In this document: positions 2,938 to 13,769 of the stretch, one piece after another
Position numbering within the stretch: position 1 is the stretch's first letter
Layout of the letters: each line of letters opens with the position of its first letter
Assembly: GCF_017875315.1 (NCBI RefSeq)
Contig: NZ_JAGGMM010000001.1
Location: 1 to 64,000 of the forward strand
DNA length: 64,000 nucleotides
From: Methanomicrobium sp. W14
GTDB lineage: Archaea > Halobacteriota > Methanomicrobia > Methanomicrobiales > Methanomicrobiaceae
Direction of reading: 5' to 3'
Notes under the pieces: generated by a model
Database searches by the model: none
Seen by the model: only the letters and a program-made list of their open reading frames with translations
What the model was told of the DNA's origin: nothing
Position numbers and translations under genes: made by a program

Positions 2938-3510
2938 TCATATTGTAAACAGACTTCTTTTGCCTGTAATTACGAGAAGTCCGCATCTGACCGCTGCATC
3001 AAGTATTCCGTAACCGTAACTGAATTCGGCAAGAGCATTTACAAAAAACTGTTTGGACAGATAAAATTCTCCGCTTTTAAGGTGTTTTTGTGCGGACGAA
3101 ATTATATCTTTTGAGAAAGGAAACATTGTGCACCCTGTATCCGGGGCAGGGCGGACCGATTCCAATGCCTCTTTAAGCATTTGGTTGTACCTGCCGGTTT
3201 TTTCGTGCAGGTGTTCCTGAATGTTTGCAGGCATCTTCTCTTCGAAACAAAAAAGTCTTTTTTCGGGGATTTCTCCTTTTATCAGTCCTGAAATGATCCC
3301 GAAATCAAGCCACCCGAACCCGTATGTAAATGAGGCATGGGCGTTTACGGGGTCTCCTGATTTTAAAAACGAAAAGCCGTCGCTTCTGTATGCACAGGCC
3401 ATTTCAAGAATTTCCTCCGAAATTCTGGAGAACGGAGTGCCTTTCTCCGGGAAGATTTTGGATTTTTTAAGCTCGGACTCCAGAAGACTCCCGAAATCTT
3501 CAGGTTTCAT
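2938..3510 (-). CDS. DUF357 family protein with an internal repeat
   Basis: Soluble 190-residue protein of the archaeal DUF357 family, biochemical function unknown. Two similar helical segments are visible: about residues 36-76 (ending [13 protein letters not shown]) and 137-180 (ending [15 protein letters not shown]). Both follow the pattern of a helix, an aromatic YGFG/YGYG turn, and a hydrophobic helix with a conserved D. This suggests a tandem helical-hairpin fold. Its start overlaps the stop of dphB by 4 bases (ATGA-type junction), so the two are very likely translationally coupled. DUF357 next to dphB hints at a link to translation but does not prove one. Confidence 0.82.
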
Positions 3511-4259
3511 AGGTCCGCAAAATTCTGGAGATATTCTTTTTCCATCATATGAAGAGATGCAGGGATTGCCATAACGTGCAAAGGCCCGCCGAAATCGACT
3601 GATTTCAGTTTTTCAGCATCACCTGCGGATACGAAAGGTGATTTTGAGCCGGCGCGTGCCATTCCTATGTATATTTCAGGAGGTTCTGTCTTCTTTTTTT
3701 CTGCCATCTCTTCAATAAGAGTGACTCCCTCTTTTACTGTCATATGTCTGTCGGGCTTTATGTCAAGAAAAACAAGGGTGTGCAGGTCCAGTCTGATGTT
3801 CTGCATAATTGTATCAAGAGGGGTTGTAGGAAACCATTTCCCTTCCGGGTATGGTATTGAACAGGATTTCCCGAACCTGTAATTCTGGAGGCCTGACAGC
3901 CCGCATACGGCACTCTGGATTGATGCACCGTGGATGATTCCGGTCTCAATGTCCTTTTCTTTTGCCCGGATGCGAAGGTCGGAATGTGTTGTTGAAACCA
4001 TAGGATCGCCCCCGGTAAGAAAAACGGCGTTTCCGTTAACTGCTGCCTTCAGTATTTTCTCAGGGGACTTCTCCACGTCGTCGCGCCCGAGAAGCGTAAT
4101 TTTCCTGTCGTAATATTTTTCCATTTTTTGTACGTCCGCCCCCATAAGGCGGGACGTATAGCCTTCAAGGAATACCGAATCTGCGCTTTTAACTGCTTCA
4201 AGACCTTTTATTGATATATCTTTCTCATCGTAGAGACCAAGACCAACGAATGTAAGCAT
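3507..4259 (-). CDS. dphB: diphthine synthase
   Basis: SAM-dependent methyltransferase that methylates the modified histidine of elongation factor 2 in diphthamide synthesis. The 250-residue length and the tetrapyrrole-methylase fold motifs fit: an N-terminal [37 protein letters not shown] with the GGDP SAM-binding loop, and [14 protein letters not shown] 4259 immediately precedes the conserved MLTFVGLGL start. It heads a leftward operon and is divergent from the gene at 4338, the 78-base gap holding both promoters. Confidence 0.95.
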
Positions 4260-4337
4260 TTTTTTCCTCTTTTTTTGGAATCGTATAGTATGTATTTATC
4301 TTCAAAGAGAAAAAAGACAATAGTTAGTTTGTGGTGA

Positions 4338-4985
4338 ATGCCACAGACATACATCCGAACGACTGGAATGTCTTTGGGGTGTTGGGAATATATGCTGATT
4401 CACCGTTATTATGAACGAATGCTGAGAAAGGAACTGAAAAACTTTCCTGACTCCGTGTGCTTCATGATAACTGATGAGGACATTACCAATGCCCCAATGA
4501 AACCAGAAGAGGTCTGCGGGTGGTGCATCAGTTTAGGAATTAAAAGAATTATTTTTCATATAGATACAGATTCTGCAGAATCCGTTTTTTCATATCTTGA
4601 CGAAATCCGGAAAATATCCGGGATTGCTCATCTTAACCTTTGCTGCGACGGAAAAACAGAGGTGTCAGGTAAAGGTGCCGAAGTATCAGTGGCTATAGGG
4701 ATGAGCGGAAGGGATGAAATTGTAAATGCCATAAAGCAGATGGCAAAAGACGGCGTTAACCCTGAATCTGTTGACGAAAAAAAGATAGAATCATATTTGA
4801 ACTTTAAATTTGAGCCTGACCTTGTTATAAAAGCCGGGGGAAGCCACCTGACCGATTTTCTTATATGGCAGTCGGTTTATTCTGAACTGTTTTTCCTTGA
4901 CGTCAACTGGAAGGGATTCAGGAAAATTGATCTTTTAAGGGCCCTTCGTGATTACCAGCTGAGAAAACGTCGTTACGGAAAATGA
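4338..4985 (+). CDS. degenerate cis-prenyltransferase paralogue (NgBR/Nus1-like partner subunit)
   Basis: 215 residues. The C-terminal third matches undecaprenyl-diphosphate synthases: PDLVIKAGGSHLTDFLIWQS aligns with the LIIRTGNEKRTSNFLPW region of the neighbouring uppS, followed by ELFFLDVNWKGFRKIDLLRAL. The catalytic P-loop (QDGNRR in uppS) is replaced by ITDEDITNAP, so the essential Asp-Gly-Asn-Arg is lost. The protein nevertheless ends in RRYGK, containing the RXG motif that the non-catalytic NgBR/Nus1 subunit supplies in eukaryotic heteromeric cis-prenyltransferases; two-subunit enzymes have also been reported in Methanosarcina. The gene converges on and overlaps uppS by 13 bases. Inferred role: regulatory or partner subunit for making the glycosyl-carrier polyprenol. 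Confidence 0.75.
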   Translation: MPQTYIRTTGMSLGCWEYMLIHRYYERMLRKELKNFPDSVCFMITDEDITNAPMKPEEVCGWCISLGIKRIIFHIDTDSAESVFSYLDEIRKISGIAHLNLCCDGKTEVSGKGAEVSVAIGMSGRDEIVNAIKQMAKDGVNPESVDEKKIESYLNFKFEPDLVIKAGGSHLTDFLIWQSVYSELFFLDVNWKGFRKIDLLRALRDYQLRKRRYGK

Positions 4986-5749
4986 CCTTCACGGTATCTC
5001 TGGTCATACAGTCTCACTCCGCGTAATAGGTCTATTTTACGGAAAAGGGGCCAGTAAGGTGCGCAGAAATATACTGCCGATTCATTTCCGTTGGCAAGCC
5101 ACGGCAGAAAGTTGGATGTCCTCTTTTCGTTTCCTGTTCTTATGATAAGGTCAACTTTCGGGATATTCACCGTATGATAAAGACTCTTTTCAATTGTGTC
5201 GTAATTGATGTCTTCCGTGTTTATTCTCTTTTCACGTATATCTCTTAATATCGAACGTGTTGCGCACAGGATCTCGTTTCTGCCGCCGTATGCAATTGCA
5301 AGGTTTATCGTGAAATGTTCGTAGTCTTTTGTAAGCTCTTCGACTCTCTCTATCTTTTCAAGAAGGTCTGCGGGCACAAGGTTTCTGTCGCCGACCATCT
5401 GTATTCTTATTTTGTTTTTATGAACTCTTTCGTCAGACCCGGCCTTGACCGCCTTTTCGGTAAACAGCTCAAAAAGTTCGTGCAGTTCGGATTTGGACCT
5501 GCTGAAGTTCTCTGTCGAAAAACAGTAGAGAGTCATATGGTGGACTCCGATTTCCTGCGCCCATTCCAGAACCTTTTCAGTAGTCTGTGCCCCCAGCCTG
5601 TGGCCTGTTGATACTTCAAGTCCGTATTCTTTTGCGAATCTCCTGTTTCCGTCCTGGATTATCGCGATATGGTTAGGGACATGGGATATATTTCTGAGAA
5701 GATGCTTCTCGTAGATTATGTCCAGATATTCTCTTATTTTTGTGTTCAC
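4973..5749 (-). CDS. uppS: undecaprenyl (polyprenyl) diphosphate synthase, catalytic cis-prenyltransferase
   Basis: Cis-condenses isopentenyl diphosphate onto an allylic primer to make the long polyprenyl diphosphate used as glycan carrier. All family motifs are present in 258 residues: IIQDGNRRFAKEYG near residue 30 with the catalytic Asp, GHRLGA, LYCFSTENFSR, INLAIAYGGRNEI, DLIIRTGNEKRTSNFLPW and FRKIDLLRGV. It ends QRYREGHFP, so an R-E-G may act as RXG. The start overlaps the stop of the upstream radical SAM gene by 4 bases. Its 3' end overlaps the convergent paralogue at 4338-4985. Confidence 0.95.
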   Translation of the reverse strand: MNTKIREYLDIIYEKHLLRNISHVPNHIAIIQDGNRRFAKEYGLEVSTGHRLGAQTTEKVLEWAQEIGVHHMTLYCFSTENFSRSKSELHELFELFTEKAVKAGSDERVHKNKIRIQMVGDRNLVPADLLEKIERVEELTKDYEHFTINLAIAYGGRNEILCATRSILRDIREKRINTEDINYDTIEKSLYHTVNIPKVDLIIRTGNEKRTSNFLPWLANGNESAVYFCAPYWPLFRKIDLLRGVRLYDQRYREGHFP

Positions 5750-6723
5750 TGTACCGGTGTCACCTCTACTATCATGCCGTTGTTGGGGTATCTTTCAATG
5801 ATTTTTTTCTCTCCGGGAAAATCATTCGGATAGTCTGTTAAAAGCCACCATGAAAGCTCGATGTGATCTTCAAACCTTTCATACATTGAATCATCAAGGT
5901 CTTTTGGCAGTTCACTTTCGGGAGTCAGAAATCCGTATACTACAGTTCCGTCTTCTGTAATCTCTTCGAAAGGCCTTGCAGTATTTTTGGCAATACGCTT
6001 GAGCCTCTCTCTAAGCTGCACTGAGTCCTTAAAAGCTGATGAGCACCAGTGAACCTTGCTGTCGGCAGAGATCAGTTTATCGGCCCACTGTTTTGCGCCT
6101 GAGACTGCGTTGTGGTAGTTGTCCTCCAGGCTATAGCCCATATTTCTCATAGCTTCTGCGTTTGTCTCGCTCCACTCAAGTTCGTTTATGTTGAGGTGGT
6201 CGAGGTACGGGAGCGCAGGGATAAGGTTTTCAAGTCCTGGCAGGGAAGGGACTTCGAATGTAACTTCAAAACCCATCTCTTTTGCTTTTATTGCAGATTT
6301 TATGTAGTCTGTTGATATAATATCTTTCCACAGTTCCTGCGGCGGGTGCATTCGCAGTTCATCCACAAGACCGGTAAGTTTTGAAAGCGTTTCTTCATCC
6401 GGAGCAGTTCCTGTATACAGGTGTATGTGGTGTTCCTTTCCGAACTCTTTTTTCAGCATGCGACAGCAGTAAACTACTCTTTCTGTCTCAAGAAGCGCTT
6501 CTCCGCCTGTGACGCCTGTCCCGAGAGCACTCATCATTCTGGCTTCGTCCAGAATGTCCTGCGGGGTTTTTACCGGTCTGTCGTTGGCATATGTATTGTC
6601 TTTTCCTTTTCTTTCATAGGATATCGGGCAGTACCAGCAGGATTTGTTGCATTTGCCTGTTATAAACAGGACCATTTTTGCTCCTTTATGGCACAGTCTG
6701 CATCCTTCACTGAGCACCGGCAC
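5746..6723 (-). CDS. radical SAM protein (COG2108-like)
   Basis: 325-residue radical SAM enzyme of unknown substrate. The cluster motif is C25-x3-C29-x2-C32 (GKCNKSCWYCP), followed by a TGGEALLE segment equivalent to the SAM-binding GGE motif. Two further cysteines, C8 and C11 (CRLC), sit just ahead, as in several archaeal relatives. It lies between lysS, overlapping by 17 bases, and uppS, overlapping by 4, so the three genes form one leftward operon. Membership of the COG2108 archaeal group is recalled, not searched. No auxiliary-cluster SPASM-type cysteine pattern is obvious at the C-terminus. Confidence 0.82.
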   Translation of the reverse strand: MPVLSEGCRLCHKGAKMVLFITGKCNKSCWYCPISYERKGKDNTYANDRPVKTPQDILDEARMMSALGTGVTGGEALLETERVVYCCRMLKKEFGKEHHIHLYTGTAPDEETLSKLTGLVDELRMHPPQELWKDIISTDYIKSAIKAKEMGFEVTFEVPSLPGLENLIPALPYLDHLNINELEWSETNAEAMRNMGYSLEDNYHNAVSGAKQWADKLISADSKVHWCSSAFKDSVQLRERLKRIAKNTARPFEEITEDGTVVYGFLTPESELPKDLDDSMYERFEDHIELSWWLLTDYPNDFPGEKKIIERYPNNGMIVEVTPVQ

Positions 6724-9310: not shown

Positions 9311-10987
9311 ATGGAGTCGGAGAAGCATGGGACAGACAGGGCAGGGCAGGGGGTTGCGCCCGGATATGATGATGGTGTAGCTGAAATTATCGGTGCACTT
9401 CTTCTTATTGCAATTATTTCCGTTACTGTCGGAATAGTTGCAATAGTTGCCTTTTCAAATGTTTCTTCTGTAGTTGAAACTCCTGCCCTGAGAGTAGGGC
9501 TTTATGATGACAGCGGAAATATCAGTCTTCTTCACCAGGGAGGAGACCCCATGTACAGGCAGACCACGCGGATAACGGTCGACGGCGTTGACAGGACAGA
9601 TGATTTTGAAAACGAGGGTGAAGGAGGTGTCTGGAATACGTTTTCGACGGGAGACCTTCTTACAAGTTTTGTTCCTTACGCTGAAGATGCGAAAGTCCAG
9701 ATAATATATACCGCTTCTGAAAACCCGACGGTCATTGAGGAACTGTCAGGTCAGCCTGAGGTTTCTTCTGCACCTGTTGCAAACTTCTCGTTTTCTCCCA
9801 CTTCGGGATACGCACCTCTTGAGGTATCCTTCGAAGATCAGTCTTCAGGAGATACAACATCATATTACTGGGACTTCGGTGACGGTAATACCTCAACCGT
9901 TTCCAATCCTTCCCACACATACGCCAGTTCAGGCACATACGAAGTAACACTAACTGTGTGCAACGGGGATGCATGCACCTCAATAACAAAGAGCATAACA
10001 GTCTTTGGATTTTCAGACTTTGTCGTGAATGAAAGTGTGTTTGTGTACGGTGATTACGTATACCTTCATGGTGGTAATGATGTTACAGGCACAGGTTCTA
10101 CTGTTATAATAACGGGTGACCTGGAAAATAACGGTGGAGTTCACTTATATGTTACTAATGTATACGTTGACGGGTCAGTTGATCTTGGAGGGAGTGCAGT
10201 TCTTGGCTCTGAAACTGACTCAAATATAATTTATATAACCGGAGATATGAGCCTTAAAGGAGACCCAAATGTTTACGGTGATACATACGTAGAAGGGAAT
10301 GTTGATCTTGGAGATTCATCGTATATTCATGGTGACCTGTATACAAATGGGAATCTCAATTTTGGTACAGGTGATCTTTTTGGTGAAACTCATGTAAACG
10401 GAGATTTCACTATGACTAATACTGGTACAATACATGGGAATATGTACATTAACGGTGATCTATCTCTGGAAAAAATTCCTGCTATTGATGACGGGGTGTT
10501 TATCTATTATACTGGATCAGATCACAAAGAAAATTATCCTCAGGATATAATTGACAAATGCATTCATGTTGATTCTGTCCCGGAATTTTCAATGCCGGAA
10601 TTTATTGGTATGCCTATACCTTCTGCAAAATCATCTGACTGGTATGGTTCACGAGGGTACGTTTTGGGTAGCGATGTAAGCGTTCTGAAAAACGGAACGA
10701 AGATATATTCTGAGAGCGGATATTCGAAAACCTGGCGGTGGAATGATGAAGGTGCTGAAAATATTGTTATCATTGCAAAGACTGGTGATATCACATTGGA
10801 TCGTTTCTGGAATATTCCTGTAACAGGTGTTCTCTTTGCCCCCAATGGAAAAGTAACATATACAGGTTCGTCTTTTGAGGGAGTTGTCATTGCAAAGGAT
10901 GGATTTTATGTCACAAACGGAGGGACAGGTATAGTATTCAAGAATTTGGATGAATACATAGCAGACCCTGCTGATTATCCGTTTTAG
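9311..10987 (+). CDS. pilin-like PKD/beta-helix surface protein (558 aa)
   Basis: Modular exported protein. Residues about 20-50 are a pilin-type segment (GVAEIIGALLLIAIISV and following). Residues about 155-232 form a PKD domain (YYWDFGDGN, HTYASSGTYEVTLTV). Residues about 236-388 are short GD/NG repeats (YVEGNVDLG, LYTNGNLNFG, MYINGDLSL) resembling a bactofilin-like right-handed beta-helix. Residues about 430-558 are a compact C-terminal domain containing AKSSDWYGSRGYV and TGVLFAPNGKV. That domain is nearly repeated in the next gene, down to the final DYPF. It probably sits on the cell surface or in a pilus-like structure. A conserved DUF7305-type domain is likely, but that name is from memory. 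Confidence 0.82.
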   Translation: MESEKHGTDRAGQGVAPGYDDGVAEIIGALLLIAIISVTVGIVAIVAFSNVSSVVETPALRVGLYDDSGNISLLHQGGDPMYRQTTRITVDGVDRTDDFENEGEGGVWNTFSTGDLLTSFVPYAEDAKVQIIYTASENPTVIEELSGQPEVSSAPVANFSFSPTSGYAPLEVSFEDQSSGDTTSYYWDFGDGNTSTVSNPSHTYASSGTYEVTLTVCNGDACTSITKSITVFGFSDFVVNESVFVYGDYVYLHGGNDVTGTGSTVIITGDLENNGGVHLYVTNVYVDGSVDLGGSAVLGSETDSNIIYITGDMSLKGDPNVYGDTYVEGNVDLGDSSYIHGDLYTNGNLNFGTGDLFGETHVNGDFTMTNTGTIHGNMYINGDLSLEKIPAIDDGVFIYYTGSDHKENYPQDIIDKCIHVDSVPEFSMPEFIGMPIPSAKSSDWYGSRGYVLGSDVSVLKNGTKIYSESGYSKTWRWNDEGAENIVIIAKTGDITLDRFWNIPVTGVLFAPNGKVTYTGSSFEGVVIAKDGFYVTNGGTGIVFKNLDEYIADPADYPF

Positions 10988-11186
10988 TCAATAATCAGCA
11001 GTCTGTGATATGGAAGATAATGAGTATATTTTTAAATACCTATAAAATGTAGGAACACACAAAGGTCATCTGTTAAGGGGTTTTCATTGGTGTATGAAAA
11101 AATAGGTTTTCCCGTTTTTTTGGATTACAATATAAATTATAATTTTGTCATATTGAGGGGGCTGGCAACTATTGACTGGAGACGGC

Positions 11187-13769
11187 ATGGTGGACGAAGA
11201 CAGATATAATATATGCGTTTGTGAAGCGGTTTCGGATATCGTCGGAGCTATTCTTATGATATCACTGGTTGTAATAGGTATTGCCATTGTAGGAGTTTTT
11301 GTAACAGGCCAGAATACTCCGACTGAAATTCCGAGTCTGTCGGTTATTCCTGATACCACAGGTAATGACCTGCTTTTGTATCATTCCGGAGGAGACTCTC
11401 TAAAAAGCGGAGAATTTTATGTCCGTGTCGATGGCACTGATTATTACCCTGATCAAATGGAGCTTATAGATCAGGGCGATGACATATATTCCGGTTCAGA
11501 TAACTGGAATTCATGGGATGTCGGGCAGACGCTTGTCATACCGGATGAAAGCGATTATAAGCAGGTTCAGATAATCTCCACAACCGGATCCGGCAGTGTT
11601 ATTGCAAGTATAGGTGATTTCACAGATACGTCTGCACCTACGGGTACCACCTCTCCTACAAGTCCAACAGGCACTACTTCTCCTACAAGTCCTACAGGTA
11701 CTACTTCTCCTACTCCGGGACCACTGCCTGTAGCGGACTTCACAGCCAATGTCACTTCAGGAATCGCGCCTCTTATAGTGAACTTCACCGACCTTTCCTA
11801 TGGAAACGGGGCCAATATAACGTCATGGTCATGGAACTTCGGTGACGGTTCTGCCTCGGCGGACCAGAACCCGGTCCATGTGTACAATTACGGAGGCAGC
11901 TATAACGTCACTCTTACAGTTTCAACCATTTACGGCAGCGATTCGGAGATCAAAGCCCGTTACATCAACGTGAGCGGACTTCCGCAGCCTGCCGCGTGGT
12001 GGAAGTTCGATGAGTCTTCAGGAAATACCGCTGTTGACTCGTCCGGAAATAATAATAACGGGGTCATAAACGGCCCTGTATTGCGTGGTGTTGGAGCATG
12101 CGAAAATGCGCTTTATTTCGACGGTACAACAAATTACGTCTCCGTTCCTGACAGCAGCACGCTTGACGCCCCGTCTGAGATTACTTTAACTGCATGGATT
12201 TATCCCGAGCACCCGGTAAACAAGTCCGGAATTCAGGACCAGTACAGAAACTACGTTTCCCTCGTTGACAAAGGCGAAGACGACAGTGACAACTACGAAT
12301 TTTTCGTCCAGAAAACTGACAATATAAGCCGCCTGACATTTGAATCGGGTAACACGTATAATTTCAACAGTCTGTCGTATGGATACAACAGGTGGCAGCA
12401 CCTTGCATGCGTTATAGATTCGGGCTCTTCAACAGGAACAGTATATATTGATGGTGAAGAGGCCGGAACATTTACGGTCGGGTCATCTCTCACCACAAAT
12501 GACCAGCCGGTCTATATCGGCATGCAGAGGATAAACTCTCATCCCGACTGGGCGACATTCAACTTCAAAGGATGGCTTGATGACGTTAGACTTTACACGA
12601 CTGCCCTTACAGGTGACCAGGTAAGAGACATCTATGACACCTGCACACCGCCGGCAACTCCTGTTGCAAACTTTACTGCGAATCAGACTGTCGGAGAAAC
12701 ACCGTTTGCAGTTAATTTCACGGATCTTTCAACGGGAGACCCGATATCATGGATGTGGAATTTTGGTGACAATACCATTTCAACAGAGCAGAATCCGGTT
12801 CACACATATACTGATGCCGGAAATTATACGGTTTCACTGACTGCAACAAACAATGGAGGTTCTGATACTGAGGTAAAGACAGATTATATAAATGTCAGTC
12901 TTTCTTTTGCAGATTACATTGTAACTGAAAATGTGTTTGTTTATGGGTACCAGCTGGAATTTAACGGAGGAACTATAACCGGTTCCGGTTCAACCATTGT
13001 AGTTAGGGGTGGCGGAGTAACAACCGAGGATTTAAACGGCGGAGCCTCACTTTCGGCGTCTTATATTTACATTGATGGCCCTGTGGATCTTGACGGTGGA
13101 AGTGCTGATTTGGGATCTCAGGTGTATCCAGGAATTATATCAGTTAATGGTGATGTAACACTTTGGGCTGGTGATCGTGATGTTTATGGGGATCTTTATG
13201 TAAATGGCGACTTTGCAATAAAAGATGCCAATATACACGGTGATGTTTATGTTAATGGAGACCTGACACTTGGATGGACACCTAGCTTTGATTCTGATTC
13301 ATACATTTATTATACAGGAACCATAACTTACCCGGATAATTATCCTGTGGATGTTATTAACAGATGTATACATGTAGATTCTGTCGAAGTCATTGATATG
13401 CCTGATTATGAAATTCCCCAGGCAAAGTCGTCTGACTGGTATAATTCCCGAGGATACGTGTCCGGTGGTACTCTTTCGAGCGGAATTAAGATATTTGCTG
13501 ACAGTTATTCCTCTACAGACTGGATTAAAGGTGGCAAGGCGGAAAATGTTATTGTTGTCGCATCAACAGGTGATATAACGATAAGTCATGGAGGTATTAC
13601 AGTGACAGGAGTACTATTTGCACCCAACGGAAAGGTAATCTTTAACGGAGCTTCCTTTGAAGGTGTAGTCATTGCAAAGGACGGATTTTATGTCTCAAGC
13701 GGTGGAACCTCAGTTGTCTTTAAAAATATGGATGAATACATAACCGACTCATCAGATTATCCGTTCTAA
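11187..13769 (+). CDS. pilin-like PKD-LamG-PKD-beta-helix surface protein (860 aa)
   Basis: Paralogue of the preceding gene with extra modules. A pilin-type helix lies at about residues 12-38 (VSDIVGAILMISLVVIGIAI). A Thr/Pro/Ser linker of three PTGTTSPTS-type 9-residue repeats covers about 151-181. Then come PKD 1 at about 181-262 (SWSWNFGDGS), a LamG-like concanavalin fold at about 268-483 (AAWWKFDESSGN to WLDDVRLYTTALTGDQ), PKD 2 at about 490-571 (WMWNFGDN), GD/NG beta-helix repeats at about 573-705, and the shared C-terminal domain ending DYPF. LamG and PKD domains usually bind glycans or form stalks. ATG 11187 follows GGAG at good spacing; TTG 11172, preceded by GAGGGGG, is an alternative start. 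Confidence 0.82.
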   Translation: MVDEDRYNICVCEAVSDIVGAILMISLVVIGIAIVGVFVTGQNTPTEIPSLSVIPDTTGNDLLLYHSGGDSLKSGEFYVRVDGTDYYPDQMELIDQGDDIYSGSDNWNSWDVGQTLVIPDESDYKQVQIISTTGSGSVIASIGDFTDTSAPTGTTSPTSPTGTTSPTSPTGTTSPTPGPLPVADFTANVTSGIAPLIVNFTDLSYGNGANITSWSWNFGDGSASADQNPVHVYNYGGSYNVTLTVSTIYGSDSEIKARYINVSGLPQPAAWWKFDESSGNTAVDSSGNNNNGVINGPVLRGVGACENALYFDGTTNYVSVPDSSTLDAPSEITLTAWIYPEHPVNKSGIQDQYRNYVSLVDKGEDDSDNYEFFVQKTDNISRLTFESGNTYNFNSLSYGYNRWQHLACVIDSGSSTGTVYIDGEEAGTFTVGSSLTTNDQPVYIGMQRINSHPDWATFNFKGWLDDVRLYTTALTGDQVRDIYDTCTPPATPVANFTANQTVGETPFAVNFTDLSTGDPISWMWNFGDNTISTEQNPVHTYTDAGNYTVSLTATNNGGSDTEVKTDYINVSLSFADYIVTENVFVYGYQLEFNGGTITGSGSTIVVRGGGVTTEDLNGGASLSASYIYIDGPVDLDGGSADLGSQVYPGIISVNGDVTLWAGDRDVYGDLYVNGDFAIKDANIHGDVYVNGDLTLGWTPSFDSDSYIYYTGTITYPDNYPVDVINRCIHVDSVEVIDMPDYEIPQAKSSDWYNSRGYVSGGTLSSGIKIFADSYSSTDWIKGGKAENVIVVASTGDITISHGGITVTGVLFAPNGKVIFNGASFEGVVIAKDGFYVSSGGTSVVFKNMDEYITDSSDYPF
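11637..11717 (+). repeat. 27-bp tandem repeat (3 copies) encoding a Pro/Thr/Ser linker
   Basis: Three consecutive 27-base units in frame, each encoding PTGTTSPTS or a variant, lie between the pilin-like stalk and the first PKD domain. Copies differ mainly at third codon positions. Such linkers are often O-glycosylated and can change copy number by slippage without breaking the frame. Confidence 0.85.

Follow-up and report, generated by a model that had tools for sequence, protein, structure and literature searches.

The convergent genes partner and uppS of Methanomicrobium sp. W14 in all likelihood encode the two chains of an obligate heteromeric cis-prenyltransferase (cPT) that would make a glycosyl-carrier polyprenol; we infer the complex, its dependence on both subunits, the product length and the role. 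The reading is backed by the sequences, the partition of motifs, the fold, a phylum-wide co-occurrence and a conserved gene orientation. An earlier note, made from the DNA letters, had proposed a two-subunit cPT at this locus, and the proposal was supported by the presence of only two cPT genes in the genome, by complementary residues in their products, by co-occurrence in the order and the phylum, and by a cPT fold in both models. Such a two-subunit archaeal cPT is already known (Methanosarcina mazei MM_0618/MM_1083), and the division of labour is very probably the same as that in human DHDDS/NgBR. The features of the locus are summarized in Table 1, in which the window is the whole stretch of 64,000 nucleotides that was analysed.

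Table 1. Features at the cPT locus, numbered by their positions in the window.
Feature	Position	Strand	Description
dph5	3507..4259	-	Diphthine synthase gene next to the partner, in divergent orientation; TIGR00522 above cut-off
TATA-like sequence	4290..4299	+	ATGTATTTAT; putative partner promoter, in conserved columns
Partner leader	4325..4391	+	Structured, very probably untranslated; block at about 4344-4382 near-invariant between genera
Partner gene	4392..4985	+	Non-catalytic (NgBR/Nus1-like) cPT subunit; 197 aa from the very probable start; C-terminus R-R-Y-G-K-stop
Overlap	4973..4985		13 bp, tail to tail; uppS stop (TAA) and last codons antisense to partner YGK-stop
uppS	4973..5749	-	Catalytic cPT subunit, uppS-like/DHDDS-like; 258 aa, GTG start, no RxG tail
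Radical SAM gene	5746..6723	-	Upstream of uppS; 4 nt overlap with the uppS start

Both genes of the pair belong to PF01255, with 228.7 and 89.9 bits in the profile search against a curated cut-off of 27. UppS covered the whole profile (E 8e-68), exceeded the cut-off of TIGR00055, and retained every tested catalytic residue except at the position of E. coli R39. Human DHDDS was the top match of its AlphaFold2 model (mean pLDDT 87.5) in both Foldseek and VIA (Z 29.0, 244 residues, 2.3 Å), and the bacterial enzymes followed less than 2 Z units behind. The C-terminus of UppS contains a literal R-E-G that lies one residue out of register with RxG and is not conserved, its sisters having LEG, SEN, and KNS at this site; the register shift and the lack of conservation rule it out as an RxG motif. 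At the two RxG positions themselves, the window UppS has E and H. Most catalytic subunits from outside Methanomicrobiales have an extension after the last helix that is absent from the window UppS and in this order. The extension, which may alter the assembly state of those subunits, comprises several dozen residues in L093 (4580-5509), L095 (4657-5586), L096 (4649-5545), L110 (4657-5586), and L134 (2398-3300).

The partner matched only the C-terminal half of PF01255 (profile positions 108-219, E 2.3e-25). Aligned directly with UppS, it was 34% identical over 106 residues (E 3e-12), which indicates that the resemblance is not due to chance. The QDGNRR loop is lost from the 4338-4985 protein, with ITDEDITNAP in its place, and the tail reads RRYGK, as had been noted before. 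The AlphaFold2 model of the partner (mean pLDDT 89.0) has the cPT fold, with a Z of about 16 over 181 residues against cPT structures; an NgBR chain was absent among the best 50 VIA matches listed for the partner, which excludes nothing. The chain of 197 aa, modelled as one helix (2-14) followed by the fold, does not have the N-terminal transmembrane anchor of NUS1 proper, and we therefore describe it as NgBR-like and do not file it as NgBR.

The listed open reading frame of the partner, which the earlier note had adopted, starts at 4338, and this start is ruled out by in-frame stops in relatives. In G001 and G025, two relatives, the conserved MLVHRYYE is closely preceded by an in-frame TGA, and the conservation in the alignment of partners begins at this motif. 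Comparison of these sequences therefore places the true start very probably at ATG 4392, and the listed frame very probably begins with 18 codons of untranslated leader. A Shine-Dalgarno-like sequence, GGGGTG, lies shortly 5' of ATG 4392.

We aligned 25 archaeal partners and 24 archaeal catalytic subunits with seven bacterial enzymes and the human proteins DHDDS and NgBR, and compared their active-site residues; identity to PDB chains was confirmed for the sequences from human and E. coli. Ten positions (D26, G27, N28, R30, S71, N74, R77, R194, R200, and S202 in E. coli numbering) were conserved in DHDDS and in all 24 catalytic subunits, and most of them were lost or variable in the 25 partners and NgBR. 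Binding of the metal and of both diphosphates falls to D26, N28, R30, S71, N74, R77, R200, and S202. The RxG motif was present in the partners (R in 24/25, G in 25/25), in the bacteria and in NgBR, was not conserved in the 24 catalytic subunits, and was absent from DHDDS. The split is imperfect and holds for the loop and the tail, not for each residue: among the archaeal catalytic subunits R39 is not a conserved position, and 19 of these 24 subunits keep E213, as do all 25 partners. The NgBR/Nus1-like combination of a lost catalytic loop and a retained RxG, which had been attributed to the partner beforehand, was found as one side of a complementary set of residues in the 25 partners and 24 catalytic subunits.

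The partner shows the features of NgBR/Nus1-type subunits, namely loss of the catalytic residues and cPT similarity mainly in the C-terminal half, by which the type is defined in PMC7839719, together with a C-terminal RxG. UppS shows those of the DHDDS/Rer2 type: the catalytic loop and the diphosphate-binding residues are present and the C-terminal RxG is absent. All intact partners inspected have one residue after RxG and then end. Human NgBR touches the active site and catalytic residues through its terminal K293 and the carboxylate of that residue, and deleting K293 or adding one residue impairs the activity (PMC7573591). In the enzyme proposed here, UppS would form the catalytic pocket (D, GNRR, FSTEN..R, and RTG..R.S), and the partner would be a pseudo-enzyme that gives half of the dimer interface and whose RxG-plus-one-residue tail would cross over to close the UppS active site above isopentenyl diphosphate. 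The product would most likely be a medium-length polyprenyl or dolichyl diphosphate that serves as the glycan carrier for AglB/STT3-type N-glycosylation.

The genome of the window, which is 99% complete, contains exactly two PF01255 genes. Among 150 genomes of Methanomicrobiales, at least one PF01255 gene was found in 144; both subunits were located in 139, the partner alone in 4, and the catalytic subunit alone in 1, and all five single-subunit genomes were 90% complete or less. In a Halobacteriota sample covering 28 families, 195 of 197 genomes matched the partner profile, nearly all of them with two matches, and both cPT types were seen directly in a subset of 30 genomes from the phylum. 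The earlier note had called for a survey of co-occurrence in Methanomicrobiales and had named absence of the paralogue from close relatives as grounds for abandoning its proposal; the partner was instead found to be kept across the order and nearly the whole phylum. Two genomes of one genus in the phylum sample (G171 and G179) had neither a cPT subunit nor a match to STT3, which is present in the genome of the window. This suggests that they lost the whole N-glycosylation route, and it supports the glycosylation role only weakly because a single lineage is concerned. Beside the pair, some genomes have a further cPT that scored about 150 bits and may belong to the MM_0014 type, as in G183 (C1:1608317-1608934) and G166 (C3:32280-32888).

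The open reading frames 4338-4985 (+) and 4973-5749 (-) are convergent and share exactly 13 bases (4973-4985), in agreement with the earlier description of a facing, overlapping pair outside an operon. The orientation in this description holds order-wide, the pair being convergent in 111 of the 112 order genomes in which the genes lie at most 3 kb apart (sum of family counts), and the overlap proved incidental. The 80 named loci examined were the best 80 matches of one contig scan, all from the same phylum by their titles; each catalytic gene found within the flank of at most 4 kb lay downstream of the partner on the opposite strand. Convergent loci included those of Methanoperedens, Argoarchaeum, Methanocellales, and Haloarcula. 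These counts are non-independent owing to shared descent. The gene dph5 was retained beside the partner in about 6 of these best 80 loci, a difference between the uppS and dph5 sides of the partner gene that speaks for a link of the two subunits. The convergent orientation is old, order-wide and recurrent in other orders, and is not special to this genome.

The junction between the two genes ranged from 54 overlapping bases to several hundred intervening ones, and it differs among members of the window's genus as well. Part of this genus has the two genes 42-74 nt apart in place of the overlap, so that the 13 bp are incidental, and other families have gaps of tens to hundreds of nucleotides; these gaps rule out the overlap as a conserved device. 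The uppS stop lies inside the antisense of the last codons of the partner, and UppS therefore ends in GHFP. The two genes would be separate convergent transcription units, and the overlap would be a side effect of the UppS C-terminus reaching into the last codons of the partner. The radical SAM gene, uppS, and lysS probably form one operon; a radical SAM gene was found behind uppS in 21 of the best 80 loci in the phylum. A flippase-like membrane protein (1826-2878, -; TIGR00374/PF03706) is encoded a few genes away from the cPT pair, and the order flippase-DUF357-dph5-partner is retained in some relatives. Elsewhere in the window, two adjacent large proteins with PKD-like repeats (9311-10987 and 11172-13769, both +) have a similar C-terminal part by eye and are apparently duplicated.

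M. mazei, an archaeon of the same phylum, likewise has two cPT paralogues, MM_0618 and MM_1083, which form a heteromeric cPT with C45-50 products (Emi et al. 2019, as quoted in PMC8131916). In our tree, Methanosarcinaceae members of both families shared clades with the window's genes, and we infer that MM_0618 and MM_1083 belong to these clades; the cPT genes lie apart in the Methanosarcinaceae loci examined, whereas they lie together in the window. Af1219/Af0707 of Archaeoglobus fulgidus is reportedly another heteromeric two-subunit archaeal cPT, and the authors of that study are said to have favoured convergence of the quaternary structure. Archaeoglobaceae relatives of both window genes were found in the tree; unlike in the window, the two genes were not neighbours in the Archaeoglobus-type loci inspected. 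Human DHDDS/NgBR (NUS1; 6z1n and 6w2l) likewise combines an RxG-less catalytic subunit with a pseudo-enzyme that ends in RxG plus one residue, and the partner profile aligned with human NUS1 over nearly its whole length. In contrast to the human pair, the window partner has no N-terminal membrane anchor and UppS has no DHDDS-like C-terminal domain; human NgBR is far more diverged. The homodimeric E. coli UppS (1jp3) has the same fold and catalytic residues as the window uppS protein, but bacterial subunits unite RxG with the catalytic loop on a single chain, whereas the window pair carries them on two.

Judged from sequence comparison, one origin of the archaeal and eukaryotic pairs is possible. 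In the best tree, DHDDS fell with the archaeal catalytic subunits (96/64), and NgBR, though on a branch of 5.2 changes per site, fell with the archaeal partners (83/100); among PDB chains the profile of the N-terminal half of the archaeal partners clearly matched only DHDDS (E 1e-4) and NUS1 (6e-4). These results speak against a separate rise of the two-subunit arrangement in archaea and eukaryotes, a view on which we are nearly evenly divided, leaning slightly against it, and which is compatible with a heteromeric archaeal enzyme. It agrees with the convergence reportedly favoured for A. fulgidus and with the AU tests, in which neither a separate eukaryotic origin with NgBR and DHDDS together (p 0.35) nor the other alternatives (p 0.32-0.44) were rejected.

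It is improbable that UppS works as a homodimer, as do the bacterial enzymes and MM_0014, and that the paralogue is a separate protein such as a regulator, a lipid-binding protein, or a decaying pseudogene. By family score, uppS encodes a full-length cPT, and the two genes do not form an operon; an enzyme whose two subunits come from separate convergent genes is unusual. Moreover, MM_0014 is without RxG and works as a homodimer (PMC8131916), so that loss of RxG alone is no proof of dependence on a partner. However, the partner is kept phylum-wide with RxG and the FLIWQS.YSE motif invariant, which argues that it is not decaying; the genome of the window has no homodimer-type enzyme with RxG; and the M. 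mazei pair is heteromeric according to the report quoted in PMC8131916. That the paralogue is itself catalytic, with another chemistry or substrate, is highly improbable: it does keep the cPT fold and E213, but the partners have lost or vary at D26, N28, R30, S71, N74, and R77, and often at the R200 and S202 equivalents.

The leader of the partner gene, whose extremely conserved structured part spans about 4327-4382, contains a conserved block 5' of ATG 4392, CAGACATACA(T)CCGAACGACTGGAATGTCTTTGGGG. In 12 genomes of four genera, 33 of its 36 columns were invariant, compared with 6% of the third codon positions of the partner, and the block was the most conserved 36-nt stretch in the 2-kb region. 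These carriers represent 12 of 28 Methanomicrobiaceae genomes, and the element occurs as a single copy, always at the partner gene. A search of Rfam with the leader gave no match, and beyond the four genera only two weak matches were obtained (E 0.03-0.07), which we took as chance. The fold of the leader had a z of -3.3. In the first hairpin, three pairs were changed on both sides and 90.9% of the cells were paired, compared with at most 59.1% in slid controls; in genus g2, most of this hairpin is replaced. Because the second hairpin does not vary, covariation gives it no support. Single-base indels and stops break the frame, so that the conservation is not coding; they rule out both a coding extension and an upstream open reading frame.

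We tentatively propose, with somewhat less than even confidence, that the partner is controlled by an undescribed leader RNA with two stem-loops that lie between the TATA-like box and the start codon. By folding, this RNA could mask or free the ribosome-binding site and so adjust the level of the helper separately from that of the catalytic subunit. The second stem-loop is predicted to end in the GGGG of the ribosome-binding site, through which the regulation would act, and the catalytic subunit would sit on its own convergent transcript, apart from this control. A DNA operator of the divergent dph5/partner pair is a further candidate for the element, because dph5 lies on the other side of the leader in nearly all carriers.

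With the present analysis, the range of a two-subunit carrier-lipid synthase grows from the few archaea in which it was documented to almost an entire phylum, at one pair per genome, and the tail-to-tail order of the cPT genes is seen to be conserved in several lineages. If the leader is a true RNA switch, it would be a rare example of regulation at a carrier-lipid step. Furthermore, the human-disease enzyme DHDDS/NgBR can be compared with small soluble archaeal versions that have no membrane anchor and, in this order, no C-terminal extension, and the origin of the eukaryotic DHDDS/NgBR pair becomes testable.
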